A stretch of DNA of 37,054 nucleotides, from assembly GCA_902500785.1 (NCBI GenBank), contig CABVRW010000025.1, positions 1-37,054 on the forward strand, given 5' to 3'. Source of the DNA: an uncultured Nitrospira sp. Its GTDB lineage: Bacteria; Nitrospirota; Nitrospiria; Nitrospirales; Nitrospiraceae. Shown here piece after piece: positions 22,775 through 35,011 of the stretch. The notes beneath the pieces are model-generated. The model saw nothing but the letters and a program-made list of their open reading frames with translations, was not told the DNA's origin and searched no databases. Position numbers and translations under genes: made by a program. Each line of letters opens with the position of its first letter. Positions within the stretch are counted from its first letter, which is position 1.

Positions 22775-23599
22775 TCACAACCGATCGAGCAACTGTCGTT
22801 TCTTCGCTTGATACTCCTCCTCTGTGATCAACTCCTGCTCATGCAGCCGCTTCAATAGACCAAGCTGTTCTTCCAACGACCGGGAATCGGAGGGCTGCTC
22901 GGGCCTCGTTGATGAAGCAGGCGGCGACGAGGGAGCGCTCAGAGCAGGGTACTCGATCGTCAGTTCAACCAGCTCCGTACGGAATGGATTCCTGCTCTCC
23001 CGGGACCCCGCGACAAGTTTCTGGCGTTCGCCGGGGACCAGTTCGTAGAACGTCCCGGCCTGCGCGAACAGCGGATCGATCCAGATTTGCTTCCGGATCG
23101 AAGGCATGGTCACGGCGACCCAACAGTTTGCCAACCGGAGATGGATTCGGTCTGCCTCGACGAACCAGGCGCCGGAGGTCACCTGCTCCACTCCCGCCTC
23201 CGAGGGCCGCGCCAACGCGAAGAGAACCTGTTCTTGAGCCGTCGCCTGCTGAAACGCTCGCCGCAACGAGGCGCCCAAGTATCGGACTTCTTCTTCGGAG
23301 AATGCCGGCTCCGCGGCTCCTTGGTATGACGGTCCGAGCATGGGCCTGTGGATGCGGCGCACCATCACGCTCCGTACCGCCGCCTCCCATTCCGTTTGCG
23401 TCAGATCCAACGGCTGCTGAAGCCGCTGACCCGGCTCAAGCGCCGAATCTTTTGTAACAGGTACGATCCGTACCAGCCGCTGGTCGTCGCACGAGACGCA
23501 GGTCTGTTCCCTGCCCTTTTCTAGTGGCGAACAACCGAACAGCAGCATGCACCCTGCCAACACAGCCGCAGCCTGGCATCGAACGGCTCGGTTCTTCAT
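22775..23599 (-). CDS. Exported lipoprotein with C-terminal SHOCT motif
   Basis: A 274-residue protein. The signal peptide ends at the lipobox LLFGCSP (Cys23), and a Cys pair CVSC follows. The middle contains an uncharacterised beta-rich domain. The last 35 residues (LEEQLGLLKRLHEQELITEEEY...) match the SHOCT short C-terminal domain, which has a two-helix hairpin and is often found at the ends of secreted or membrane proteins. A Ser/Pro-rich linker separates it. It lies 32 bases after the heme-porin gene in the same operon, but no direct functional link is evident. Confidence 0.75.
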   Translation of the reverse strand: MKNRAVRCQAAAVLAGCMLLFGCSPLEKGREQTCVSCDDQRLVRIVPVTKDSALEPGQRLQQPLDLTQTEWEAAVRSVMVRRIHRPMLGPSYQGAAEPAFSEEEVRYLGASLRRAFQQATAQEQVLFALARPSEAGVEQVTSGAWFVEADRIHLRLANCWVAVTMPSIRKQIWIDPLFAQAGTFYELVPGERQKLVAGSRESRNPFRTELVELTIEYPALSAPSSPPASSTRPEQPSDSRSLEEQLGLLKRLHEQELITEEEYQAKKRQLLDRL

Positions 23600-23631: not shown

Positions 23632-25101
23632 TCAGTAGGCAAAATCCAATCCGACCAGCAGGGTTTGTCCCGTCAGGTCACCGCCGTTAGGACCGACGGC
23701 TTGCGTGCGATAACTATTGTATTCCGCGTGTAAGGCCAAATCGGTTCGCGTGGAATGATGAATGAAGTACCGCGCCAGCACCGTATGGGCATCGACGTCG
23801 TTATAGTTTCCTCGAAATCCATCGGTATTTCCGTCGCCCTGCCGATCGTTTCGGATCACATCGTAGCGATAGGCAAAAAACCAATCCGGCATGTCGAAGA
23901 ACAGGGCGGGATAATAATCCAACTCGACGAACGCCCCGTGCCAGGAGGCGTTCTGAGGAGTCGGAATCCCCTGCGACGCGAACAGTTGCGCGCTGTCATG
24001 TCCGTGCATGAGCGCGCCGAACAGATTCCACTCTCCATTGAAGGTCAAGCTCACATCGACCCCGATCCGGGTGAACGGCTGCCCGCTCCCCGCCACTCCC
24101 TGGCAGGTCGGACATGTAGCATTGACCATCGTCGGCGCTTGGCCGTAGGCTCCGAAGATTCCAACCCGATTCCCGGTTACGATACCGTATCCTCCGAATG
24201 ACTGGGTGATATGGCCATAGAAATTCACGTTTCGTCCACCGGTTCCGCAGGGTGTATCGGGAGGACAACCTCCTAACGGCCCTGAAAACGTGTTGGTGGC
24301 GAGCGCGGTCAGAGAATATCGAAAGTAGCCTTCCGTCGAAGGGGTTTTCGTGATCCCCGACAGTTCCCCGCCGGGCTGATTGTCTCCCAACAAAAAGGTA
24401 TTGGGATTCAAATAGGAACTGGTCGAGGTCCCGCCGATGGTCGCAGTATACGGCACCCCCGGCGTGTAATGGTACATGACGAACGGCGTATTCAAGGTCG
24501 GACTGCGTTTTTCGCTGAACGGAAGATCGAGCTCAAATTTCCCGACTCGTAAGTTCAGTAAGTAGCGACCGGGCTCCTCCTTGACGCCGAAATAGCGTTC
24601 CAGTCGCATCAGGCGCACGAAGGCACTTTCAAGGTCTCCGTCCGAGGCCCCGGTCCCGAACCCCGCGCTGCCCAGTGCCGGCGTATAGACCACGCCGAAC
24701 GCGATATCTCGATGCAGCGTGCCGAAACTTAAGAGATCCAATCCCGTGAAACCAAACCCGCCGGTCGTCAGGCCGCTCCCTTCCGTCCGCACCTGCGCGG
24801 ATTGATATCCGACCGTCGTCCGGATCGACACAGGCCAGAAGCCCATGCCGATCCCTTCGTACACGGGCGAATCCGCTTCAGAACCCAACTGATACCCGCG
24901 GTCCCTGAAGAGGTTGCCGAAGTCGTTGAGTTTTGGAAACCCCGGCACATGGCAGACATTGCATTTGAAATCATATTTGCGGGCGAAGGCCGGAATGGCC
25001 TCGGCCTTTTGCACCAACCCGCTCAGCTCGTAACTCACCAGCGCGCAGAGGACGAGCAGCGCGACGATCACGACTCTCGCTTGAAACGTAGCGATCTTCA
25101 T
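23632..25101 (-). CDS. Cyc2-like outer-membrane cytochrome-porin fusion
   Basis: A 489-residue exported protein. After a signal peptide (about 1-36) comes a single heme motif CNVCH (47-51) in the context AIPAFARKYDFKCNVCHVPG, followed by FPKLNDFGNLFRDRGYQLG. The remaining 400 residues alternate short strands and Gly/aromatic-rich turns and end in LLVGLDFAY, with a C-terminal aromatic residue typical of outer-membrane beta-barrels. The arrangement (signal, one CXXCH, barrel) is that of Cyc2/Cyt572-type cytochrome-porins, which carry electrons across the outer membrane in iron oxidisers. The function here is inferred; Fe oxidation is not demonstrated. It is downstream of a possible copper protein. 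Confidence 0.7.
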   Translation of the reverse strand: MKIATFQARVVIVALLVLCALVSYELSGLVQKAEAIPAFARKYDFKCNVCHVPGFPKLNDFGNLFRDRGYQLGSEADSPVYEGIGMGFWPVSIRTTVGYQSAQVRTEGSGLTTGGFGFTGLDLLSFGTLHRDIAFGVVYTPALGSAGFGTGASDGDLESAFVRLMRLERYFGVKEEPGRYLLNLRVGKFELDLPFSEKRSPTLNTPFVMYHYTPGVPYTATIGGTSTSSYLNPNTFLLGDNQPGGELSGITKTPSTEGYFRYSLTALATNTFSGPLGGCPPDTPCGTGGRNVNFYGHITQSFGGYGIVTGNRVGIFGAYGQAPTMVNATCPTCQGVAGSGQPFTRIGVDVSLTFNGEWNLFGALMHGHDSAQLFASQGIPTPQNASWHGAFVELDYYPALFFDMPDWFFAYRYDVIRNDRQGDGNTDGFRGNYNDVDAHTVLARYFIHHSTRTDLALHAEYNSYRTQAVGPNGGDLTGQTLLVGLDFAY

Positions 25102-25175
25102 TGGGGTACCTCTCCGAATTCACGATGAATGAAGCAGGTCTATCGAACGTCATGACCGTGAGGCGTGGTCCTCGC

Positions 25176-26039
25176 TCATTCCGGGAGCAGTTCTCCAGCC
25201 TCGCCGGCAATCTTCCAGTCAACCTCGACCGGTCGGACAGGGAATTCAAACCGGCTCTCGATCTGCGCCTTCGGGGTGATCTCGACCTGTTGGCGTAGGA
25301 TGTGCGGCTCATCGTAGACGGGACGAGACGCCTGAAATTTGACGATGTTGTATCCCTGGTGCCAGGCGATCACCGTATAGTTCCCCGGTGGGATGCCGCC
25401 GATTTCGAATCGCCCTTCTGCATCGGTGACGGCGAAGTAGGGATGGTCGAACGCGGCAGCCCAGGCGTTCATGTGCACGTGCACGTCACATTGCACACGC
25501 AGCCCGATGCCGCGCGCCCGGACCAACTTCGTCTCAATCTCTCGGTCGGCCGTCGGCATGGCGATGTTGAACAGGCTGTGTTTGTCGTTAAAAAGATGCG
25601 GATTGTGCAGAATCGGCTCGTAATTAATGAAGGCGATCTCGGAGGTGCGGACAAAGGGACTGACCTGCTGTTCGAACTGGCAGGCACGACCAGCGGGATG
25701 CGCCGCGCTCTTTCCCATGCGCAACGGATAGGCCGCCTCGGCTGCCTTCCCCTTCTCCACCCGCTCCAGATATATGAGGACCTCGTGAACCCCCTTCGTA
25801 GCCGGATCGATCTGCAGAACCGGCGACGGCACCTGCGTCCCGCACGTGTCGATATCGGCAAACACCTTGAGCGGCGGGATCTTGGGGATGTCTCCCTTCC
25901 AGATTGCTTGGCCCTTGATCGTGCCGCCATCGGTGACCTCGATCACCTCATAGACCGCAAAGACCGGTGACACCTCGACACATAATGCGAGACAGAAGGC
26001 GAACAGCAGGCTGTATCCGCAATGGCCTCGTCGAAACAT
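25176..26039 (-). CDS. Exported carboxypeptidase-regulatory/cupredoxin-like protein
   Basis: A 287-residue periplasmic protein with a signal peptide (core GYSLLFAFCLALCVEVSPVFA). The N-terminal beta domain is followed by CDVHVHMNAWAAAFDHPYFA and a carboxypeptidase-regulatory-like stretch DAEGRFEIGGIPPGNYTVIAWH. The combined pattern (NYEPILHNPH, CxxHxHM, then HPYF...VPPG-type) resembles methylamine-utilisation or plastocyanin-like periplasmic proteins, with His, Cys and Met residues that could bind copper. GAGG lies six bases before ATG 26039; an ATG at 26051 has no ribosome site. It is followed 74 bases later by the heme-porin gene. Confidence 0.7.
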   Translation of the reverse strand: MFRRGHCGYSLLFAFCLALCVEVSPVFAVYEVIEVTDGGTIKGQAIWKGDIPKIPPLKVFADIDTCGTQVPSPVLQIDPATKGVHEVLIYLERVEKGKAAEAAYPLRMGKSAAHPAGRACQFEQQVSPFVRTSEIAFINYEPILHNPHLFNDKHSLFNIAMPTADREIETKLVRARGIGLRVQCDVHVHMNAWAAAFDHPYFAVTDAEGRFEIGGIPPGNYTVIAWHQGYNIVKFQASRPVYDEPHILRQQVEITPKAQIESRFEFPVRPVEVDWKIAGEAGELLPE

Positions 26040-26058
26040 GAGACACCTCATCGACTGA

Positions 26059-26271: not shown

Positions 26272-27285
26272 TCACTTGATCCCGATCACCATCGAATCCG
26301 GTCCCGCTAGCGGTTCCACCTTCGTACGTTTGAAGCCGGCCTTCTTCATCCACCGGGCGCAATCCGCGCCGGTGAAATCGAATCCGCCGGGTGTCTCGAT
26401 GAGCATGTTCAGGCTCATCAGTAATCCGAAAACATTCTGCTTCCGCGCATCGTCGATCAGAGCCTCGTGCACGATCAACGCCCCGCCGGGCGGGAGCGCC
26501 TTATACGCTTTGCGCAACAGCATCATCTTCTCGCCGAGATCCCAGTCATGGAGAATGTGCCCCATGATGAGGACATCAGCCTTCGGAAGCGCGTCCTTAA
26601 AGAAGTCACCCGGATAAAACGCCACCCGCTTCTCGAGTTTCTTGGTCCGCGCATAGGCCTCGAACACCGGCTGCACCACGGGGAGGTCCATGCCCTGCCC
26701 GGTGAGATGCTTGTGCGCCAGCGCGATCTCTGCCGCCACACCGCCCTGTGCGCAGCCGACATCGACGAAGGAGCGATATTTCTTCCAGGGAAACTTCCCG
26801 GCGATGGCGCGCGCCGTGCCCTGGCTGAGTCCGGTCATGGCCTTGAGAAATCCCTCCAGCCGTTGCGGATCCGCGTAGAGGGTACCGAAAAAATCTTCGC
26901 CCGTCTTCACCTCGTTCTGCGGCTTCCCGGTGCGGAGCGCTTCCGTCAGCGACCCCCAGAAGCGATACAGCCTGGCGTTGCACATCTCCAGCATGCCGCC
27001 GGCATAGGAGGGCTTCGCGCGATCCAGAAACAAGGCGGTCTCGGAGGTATTAGCGTACCGCGTGCCGACGCGCCTCAGCATCCCGAGTGCCACCAGGGCA
27101 TCGAAGAAATCCTGCGCGCTGCGCGGATGCAGCTTCAGCCGTTGTGCGAGGGTCTTGGCATCGAGCGATCGTTTGGCGAGTTCCGTGAACAGCCCCAGCT
27201 CGACCGCGCTGAGCAACGTCTTCGATCCCCAAAATCCAAGTCCAAGCTGCATGATTCGGTCAGGAACCAATTGCCGAGCGGCCAT
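26272..27285 (-). CDS. O-methyltransferase (Methyltransf_2 family)
   Basis: A 337-residue protein with an N-terminal winged-helix dimerisation domain (about 1-95, with [20 protein letters not shown]) and a C-terminal Rossmann methyltransferase domain. SAM-binding motif [16 protein letters not shown] (about 171-186) is followed by [20 protein letters not shown], containing the HDW segment that holds the catalytic His in this family, then [13 protein letters not shown]. The motif I pattern DVGCAQGG differs from the usual DVGGGxG. The family methylates hydroxyl groups of secondary metabolites, carotenoids or quinone-like rings. GAAAGGA precedes the ATG. Substrate unknown. Confidence 0.87.
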
Positions 27286-33714: not shown

Positions 33715-34362
33715 TTAGGTAGAGGAACGTTGGGGCTGAGGCTTGAACAGCGTCATCGTCAGAGCCATGGTCAGGAGTGAGCCAACGAAAGCCGCGGCCA
33801 TATCCTTCTGCGCATCCCACTCGTCCCCTTGAGTTCCCAAATACAAATTCCCCAATTCAGGGCTGACGAGCATGGCGACGATGGCTTCGATCACTTCGAA
33901 AAACCCGCTCTGAGCCAGAATAACGCTGACAGACAGAGCGGTGGCCCACAGCCCCCGCACGCCCGCCAAGCGCACGAGCATCTCCCGGAGAGGATAGACC
34001 AGGAGGGCCCCATAAGCGAAATGCACGATGCGATCGAATGGGTTTCGAGTCAGCTCCCACGCGTCTTTCAACCAGAAGCCAAAGGGAACTTCCGCATAGG
34101 TATAGTGGGCGCCGATCGCATGGAGTACCAGGAAGGCCGTAATCAGATAGTAGGACGGAAGAGAAAACGGGAATCGCCGATAGGTCGCGATGAGAACCGT
34201 CACGAGCGTCACTGCGAGGAGGTTTTCCAGGAACCAATCACCTCGGTCGACCGGCTCGATCGCGAGCCAGATCCAGATCAACCCATAGGCCAGGAGCAGG
34301 CCCAACACGACAGGGCGATTGTCCCTTCCCTCTCCGCGCTGATCTCTCGCCTCGACAACCAT
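33715..34362 (-). CDS. YjdF-type (DUF2238) membrane protein, copy 1
   Basis: A 215-residue integral membrane protein with about six hydrophobic helices. Family signatures include HAIGAHYTYAEVPFGFWLKD, FDRIVHFAYGALLVYPLREM and the polar TQGDEWDAQKDMAAA after the helix FFEVIEAIVAML. DUF2238/YjdF proteins have no established function; conserved charged residues within helices hint at transport or catalysis. Start ATG 34362. It lies 10 bases after a clear paralogue on the same strand, so the two form a tandem duplication. Confidence 0.88.
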   Translation of the reverse strand: MVVEARDQRGEGRDNRPVVLGLLLAYGLIWIWLAIEPVDRGDWFLENLLAVTLVTVLIATYRRFPFSLPSYYLITAFLVLHAIGAHYTYAEVPFGFWLKDAWELTRNPFDRIVHFAYGALLVYPLREMLVRLAGVRGLWATALSVSVILAQSGFFEVIEAIVAMLVSPELGNLYLGTQGDEWDAQKDMAAAFVGSLLTMALTMTLFKPQPQRSST

Positions 34363-34372
34363 GGCGTGCAGA

Positions 34373-35011
34373 CTATTCTGAGAGGGCCGCCTCGGATTCC
34401 AATGCCGACTCCGCTCCGCGCAGCGCGCGCGTCACCAGGAGTAGCGTCATGCAGAGTAACGCGCCGTAGAGCGCGGCCGCCATGTCCTTCTGTGCATCCC
34501 AGATATCCCCCTGCGAACCGAGATAGGTGACGCCCAGTTCCGGATGCACGGCGCGAGCCACCCACGATTCAATGATTTCCCAGAGGCCGCTCAGCCCAAG
34601 AATAGTCATGACGGGAAGGTAATACACCACCCACCCCCGGATACTCGCGCTCAGGCGAAACAGCTCTTCCATAGGATAGGCCAACAAGAACCCGAAACTG
34701 AAGTGCACGATCCGATCGAAGTGATTGCGCCCGAAATGCATCCCCTGATCCATCCAGATGCCGATCGGCACCTCGGCGTAGGTGTAGTGAACGCCGATGG
34801 TGTGCAGGGTGAGAAAGGCCGTAATGAGCGCGTAGGAGGTATGGGACAGTGGAAGCAGCCGATGAGTCGCGACCAATAAGACGACAAAGAGCGCCGGCAG
34901 GATGCTGGCCAACATCCAGAACTGCGGATCGACCGGAGCCTGCGCCATCCAGATCGACACCGCTAAATACCAGACTAACAGCCCTATGAAGACCAACTTA
35001 TTGCGACCCAC
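34373..35011 (-). CDS. YjdF-type (DUF2238) membrane protein, copy 2
   Basis: A 212-residue membrane protein with the same family signatures as its neighbour: HTIGVHYTYAEVPIGIWMDQ, FDRIVHFSFGFLLAYPMEEL and SQGDIWDAQKDMAAA. It starts with GTG (35009-35011), preceded eight bases upstream by AGGAGA. Conservation of the HYTYAEVP, FDRIVHF and QGDxWDAQKDMAAA blocks in both copies while the rest diverges suggests these segments are functional. The pair is probably translated from one message. Confidence 0.88.
   Translation of the reverse strand: MGRNKLVFIGLLVWYLAVSIWMAQAPVDPQFWMLASILPALFVVLLVATHRLLPLSHTSYALITAFLTLHTIGVHYTYAEVPIGIWMDQGMHFGRNHFDRIVHFSFGFLLAYPMEELFRLSASIRGWVVYYLPVMTILGLSGLWEIIESWVARAVHPELGVTYLGSQGDIWDAQKDMAAALYGALLCMTLLLVTRALRGAESALESEAALSE

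Follow-up and report, generated by a model that had tools for sequence, protein, structure and literature searches.

Does this stretch of a Nitrospira genome encode two proteins that together carry electrons across the outer membrane? A sequence-only reading of the window (the whole 37,054-nucleotide stretch of DNA analysed) had proposed a Cyc2-like heme-porin beside a possible copper protein. The reading we favour, to which we give a probability of roughly 65%, is that the porin acts as a conduit of the Cyc2/Cyt572 type, by which iron oxidisers take up electrons, with Fe2+ as its most likely donor and the adjacent cupredoxin as its periplasmic acceptor.

The host genome belongs to the genus Nitrospira (3.9 Mb in 129 contigs, 99.6% complete). 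Five genes make up the locus, all on the minus strand and in the following order:

26272..27285, minus strand: O-methyltransferase-like protein, 337 aa (Methyltransf_2 and Dimerisation domains)
25176..26051, minus strand: putative periplasmic cupredoxin with a carboxypeptidase-regulatory-like beta-sandwich around it, 291 aa, probable redox partner; cupredoxin domain at about residues 105-202 (His149, Cys188, His191, Met194), sandwich at about residues 38-55 and 205-275
23632..25101, minus strand: Cyc2/Cyt572-type monoheme cytochrome-porin, 489 aa; signal helix, CNVCH at residues 47-51, predicted 16-stranded beta-barrel at residues 92-488
22775..23599, minus strand: likely lipoprotein with a C-terminal SHOCT domain, 274 aa
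21875..22684, minus strand: class I methyltransferase, 269 aa

The porin and cupredoxin genes lie 74 bp apart on the same strand. The sequence-only reading had correctly placed an open reading frame upstream of the porin; the end it assigned to that gene, 26039, is the second in-frame ATG, and the full frame reaches 26051. The SHOCT protein, which has a CxxC-like motif at its N-terminus, stays beside the porin in further Nitrospirota genera as well. The O-methyltransferase-like gene is syntenic in most loci of the genus (it was not found within the flank of locus L023) and was not seen with the porin outside the genus loci, and synteny of the class I methyltransferase is restricted to the genus; neither gene is probably part of the redox module. 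No terminal oxidase was found near the porin locus, and no oxidase or diheme cytochrome c gene adjoins it. Elsewhere in the window, two tandem DUF2238 predicted membrane proteins are encoded at 33715-35011.

The porin and its family

The porin frame starts with ATG and encodes, as originally described, a 489-residue protein with a signal peptide, one CNVCH motif and some 400 residues of barrel-like sequence with an aromatic end (...GLDFAY). A hydrophobic signal helix opens the protein, with likely cleavage after A-E-A, directly before IPAFARKY, and the single heme motif (residues 47-51) lies within AIPAFARKYDFKCNVCHVPGFPKLNDFGNLFRDRGYQLG. Four features define Cyc2 (Keffer et al., PMC8406198): AXPXFAR[Q/K][T/Y] ahead of CXXCH, PXL behind it, a barrel of 16 strands and a length of at least 365 residues. 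The window porin has AIPAFARKY ahead of its only CxxCH, PKL about 4 residues past it (CNVCH-VPGF-PKL) and 489 residues in all; the spacing from AIPAFARKY to CNVCH is 3 residues, against a published spacing of 5 (PMC8406198).

Neither Pfam nor NCBIfam holds a family that matches the porin, and searches of PDB sequences with it gave no match. The proposed Cyc2 kinship was instead borne out by this motif signature, in place of Cyc2 profile HMMs, together with full-length homology: BLASTP aligned the porin end to end (residues 9-489) with a Leptospirillum-type protein (L099; E 2e-36, 28% identity), so named by its 84% identity to its closest named relative, a Leptospirillum sp. protein (L109). Of 28 other genomes in the genus, 21 carry the porin at full length and 80-99% identity, and the CxxCH motif is invariant in an alignment of 38 homologues from several phyla, so the reading frame is not a product of chance. 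Across phyla, no other part of the family is as constant as this motif with its flanks; the barrel is variable. No relative of the porin was found among viral contigs.

An AlphaFold2 model built from the 38 sequences (pLDDT 80.9, pTM 0.81) predicts exactly 16 strands over residues 92-488 and short helices in the heme domain. The 16-strand barrel that had been anticipated is thus what the model contains, and its best solved matches are informative: Foldseek ranked OprP (2o4v) and OprO (4rjw) first, and VIA-align gave Z values of about 24 to PorB (4aui/3wi4) and other 16-stranded porins. The predicted barrel is that of a 16-stranded OprO/OprP-like porin. OprO and OprP are also the structural templates of Cyc2 from PV-1 (PMC8406198), and PorB (4AUI, 3WI4) served as template for the published Cyt572 model (PMC10654088). 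Given the motif, length, homology, predicted barrel and shared templates, membership of the Cyc2/Cyt572 cytochrome-porin family is secure, heme loading and activity excepted.

Within that family, the window porin resembles Cyt572 (Cyc572) of Leptospirillum, a member of Cyc2 cluster 3, in its signal peptide, its one CxxCH just past AxPxFARxY, its 16-stranded barrel and PorB as best PDB match. The Leptospirillum-type proteins differ from it in being longer (about 545-560 aa, with longer loops) and only 28% identical. The partner published for Cyt572 is Cyt579, and the two genes are not clustered, whereas the window porin adjoins a cupredoxin. Motif, length, monoheme cytochrome-porin layout and OprP/OprO-like barrel are also shared with Cyc2 of Mariprofundus PV-1 (cluster 1) and A. 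ferrooxidans (cluster 2); the window porin probably belongs to a different cluster from these. In our tree, where deep branches are long and we therefore make no claim of transfer between phyla, it was placed among Nitrospirota and Nitrospinota sequences.

The porin homology as such is not new: Cyc2 homologues are present in Nitrospirales (PMC9040806), 'Ca. N. defluvii' is among the genomes to which FeGenie assigned iron oxidation potential via cyc2 or sulfocyanin homologues (PMC7005843), and Leptospirillum Cyt572 clusters with homologues from Acidobacteria and Nitrospira (PMC10654088). Of the named loci, the closest to the window is in Nitrospira sp. RBC_NOB1, whose porin is 99% identical. 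The same genus set includes Nitrospira sp. UBC2 (L125) and 'Ca. Nitrospira defluvii' (FP929003.1, L186). The porin of CAADGJ010000166.1 (L147), titled uncultured Nitrosospira, isolate NOB2, also groups with Nitrospira porins and probably comes from a misnamed MAG. At locus L084 an in-frame TAG breaks the porin, and the neighbouring cytochrome is also broken, through decay or assembly error. The host genome itself has an orphan C-terminal fragment on another contig (C17:27928-28053, L011). This frame of 62 aa shares 58% identity with porin residues 453-488 and is probably what remains of another porin copy.

The adjacent cupredoxin

The upstream gene had been read as cupredoxin/carboxypeptidase-regulatory-like, with clustered His, Cys and Met. 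Both halves of that description held up. Its C-terminus matches Pfam CarboxypepD_reg (E 6.5e-7, slightly under the gathering score), a match to fn3_3 is also present, and His, Cys and Met are clustered in the sequence. Thirty porin-linked homologues, drawn from three phyla, were aligned, and C70, C124, H149, N150, C188, H191 and M194 are invariant among them. A profile made from this alignment finds amicyanin over the middle part of the protein (E = 2e-4), with the copper ligands in register: H149-N150 falls on HN, and C188-x2-H191-x2-M194 on C-x2-H-x2-M. Of 79 homologues, 77 retain the full set of ligands; the other two entries are the two halves of one interrupted gene (L196), broken by decay or assembly error.

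Structure prediction agrees with the profile. The AF2 model (pLDDT 82.5) retrieved pseudoazurin and amicyanin in Foldseek (E 4e-4 to 8e-4), and its residues 105-202 superpose on plastocyanin and amicyanin with VIA Z values of 8-9 (rmsd about 2.3 Å over some 85-90 residues), consistent with the cupredoxin Greek key. Residues 38-274 of the model match carboxypeptidase D/N regulatory domains, with only about 80 residues aligned. The simplest reading of the model is a cupredoxin nested in a regulatory-type sandwich. An amicyanin-like ligand set in a predicted cupredoxin fold strengthens the guess that this is a copper protein. We had also considered that the CarboxypepD_reg and fn3_3 matches mark a protein that does not bind copper, a reading we rejected on the profile and fold comparisons.

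The protein shares with amicyanin the His...Cys-x2-His-x2-Met spacing, the HN motif and the cupredoxin fold; it differs in the second beta-sandwich domain around the cupredoxin, in two more invariant cysteines (70 and 124) and in having no link to methylamine dehydrogenase here. The family is multicopy, with about seven genes in the host genome (from eight profile matches, of which two are fragments of a single reading frame on contig C3). It is therefore not exclusive to porins, and must also do things unconnected with them. The named Leptospirillum genome (G431) contains no member.

Co-occurrence of porin and cupredoxin across genomes

All 21 other loci of the genus have the cupredoxin gene immediately upstream of the porin. 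Among 80 named loci, which were the best matches to the porin query, 20 from Acidobacteriota and three from Gammaproteobacteria carry a cupredoxin homologue close to the porin. A diheme cytochrome c usually accompanies the two, in the orders porin-diheme-cupredoxin and cupredoxin-porin-diheme; the porins concerned are divergent Cyc2-like proteins.

Since that set consisted of best matches, we drew a second sample of 199 Acidobacteriota genomes, with a porin profile as the sole query. It yielded 40 loci with flanks, 37 of them with a recognisable heme-porin, and a cupredoxin was found on the same strand within 4.5 kb in 20 of the 37, mostly directly downstream. Gene density alone predicts 0.2 to 0.6 such cases, a comparison whose significance is not exact, as deeper kinship among the loci remains. 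Five of the 20 fall in groups more than 90% identical, which leaves about 17 independent loci, still with deeper relatedness.

The 50 Nitrospirota porin loci from outside the main genus set, or representing second modules, give a different picture: a cupredoxin lies on the same strand in only 14, and a c-type cytochrome of related type is present in 34. The place that the cupredoxin takes beside the porin in this genus is usually occupied, in sister genera of Nitrospirota, by a small c-type cytochrome, with the SHOCT protein kept. Such small monoheme c-type cytochromes often have a lipoprotein-like start (examples are L033, 633-1340; L034, 3027-3593; and L040, 3037-3822). With nearby genera mostly carrying cytochrome c, the cupredoxin pairing might have been a habit of one genus, an explanation rejected by the wider survey. 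Cupredoxin genes stand next to Cyc2-type porins in at least three bacterial phyla; the pairing, whose spread the earlier reading had left to a genome survey, recurs in several gene orders.

Nitrospira also has a second module. In N. defluvii and other Nitrospira (L191-L197), a second, divergent Cyc2-like porin is followed by a diheme cytochrome c and another cupredoxin homologue; in N. defluvii (L191, 780000-794000) this module is intact and additionally includes a hybrid histidine kinase. The two Nitrospira porins fall in separate clades of the tree. In the host genome a contig break appears to divide the second module: its genes run off the end of contig C20 (L189) and resume where contig C107 (L190) begins, with a reading frame there that closes on a barrel-like ...FFVGIDVAY before its stop. 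The intact loci of other Nitrospira are the basis for joining the two pieces.

Proposed electron path and alternatives

Taken together, the porin and the cupredoxin probably form one electron-transfer module. In the path we propose, the porin would be an outer-membrane conduit with its mature N-terminus at IPAFARKY and a small helical domain that carries a single c-type heme and is placed at, or within, the mouth of the 16-stranded barrel. This heme would take electrons from a small soluble donor on the cell exterior, with Fe2+ the likeliest candidate, and pass them inward, directly to a periplasmic cupredoxin loaded with copper at an amicyanin-like type 1 site. The cupredoxin may then reduce the periplasmic c-cytochrome pool, from which electrons would go on to an oxidase. 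Its part would be that of rusticyanin, or of Cup plus Cyc1, in Acidithiobacillus; in sister Nitrospirota genera a small cytochrome c apparently takes the same part.

In the rus operon, the order of the first genes is cyc2-cyc1-cup, and Cyc2 reduces rusticyanin (PMC10654088). Many of the homologous loci, with their porin-diheme-cupredoxin order, resemble the operon of Acidithiobacillus (cyc2-cyc1-cup-coxBACD-rus). Of the genes that together define it (cyc2, cyc1, cup, coxBACD and rus), the window has counterparts of porin and cupredoxin only, and with the diheme and oxidase genes absent it does not belong to the rus operon. Its cupredoxin is, moreover, amicyanin-like and sits inside a carboxypeptidase-regulatory-like domain; the analogy with the operon implies no kinship to rusticyanin or Cup/AcoP and concerns mode of action rather than descent.

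The strongest alternative keeps conduit and partner and changes the donor, which might be Mn(II), reduced organics, minerals or partner cells, or else has the electrons exported. We regard it as unlikely, though it is the first of the rivals. Cyc2 also occurs in the Mn-oxidising Ca. Manganitrophaceae and has been proposed to act there (PMC9040806), Ca. Tenderia expresses Cyc2 on cathodes, and the module is common in Acidobacteriota, which nothing in our data marks as iron oxidisers; against this, all three Cyc2 members tested biochemically oxidise Fe(II) (PMC8406198).

A further alternative, which we rate as distinctly improbable, assigns the cupredoxin/regulatory-domain protein to metal handling: it would bind, store or assemble copper or iron for the outer-membrane protein and carry no electrons. 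Sandwiches of the CarboxypepD_reg type are usually binding or structural modules, and the metal-transport-related EfeO and FtrB are among the solved cupredoxin-like chains that match the model; the multicopy nature of the family points the same way. Such a role sits poorly with a complete amicyanin-like ligand set in almost all members, and with the diheme or monoheme cytochrome c encoded in the same cluster at many loci. That the porin is an ordinary solute porin with a structural, vestigial or chance CxxCH we reject as very improbable, for although its barrel is folded like those of general and anion porins, the heme motif and its flanks are conserved where the barrel is not, the protein is homologous to Leptospirillum-type (Cyt572-like) proteins, and it adjoins c-cytochromes and cupredoxins.

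Our verdict on the electron-conduit reading is that the conduit family is a known one and that its recurrent copper partner is new. A literature search returned no description of a Cyc2-type porin/cupredoxin pairing, which is weak evidence, as most subscription literature lay outside its scope. The closest reports concern cupredoxin clusters in Sideroxydans and a cupredoxin complex in Tenderia, neither of them presented there as Cyc2-linked. A wider proposal, which we advance only tentatively and hold to be somewhat doubtful, is that the porin and amicyanin-like cupredoxin, whether or not joined by a diheme cytochrome c, constitute an undescribed, rus-like module of extracellular electron uptake across phyla, and that its two versions in Nitrospira may let these bacteria use Fe(II), or some other extracellular donor, as an electron source in addition to nitrite.

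Nitrospira drive nitrite oxidation worldwide. If the inlet works as proposed, it would add a lithotrophic input besides nitrite to their metabolism. For most Cyc2 homologues the periplasmic step is open, above all in cluster 3, to which Cyt572 belongs and whose function is described as least certain (PMC8406198); a recurrent, genetically linked copper partner provides a concrete pair of proteins at this step. The cupredoxin neighbour may, in addition, serve as a mark of neighbourhood by which Cyc2 homologues of doubtful role can be ranked.
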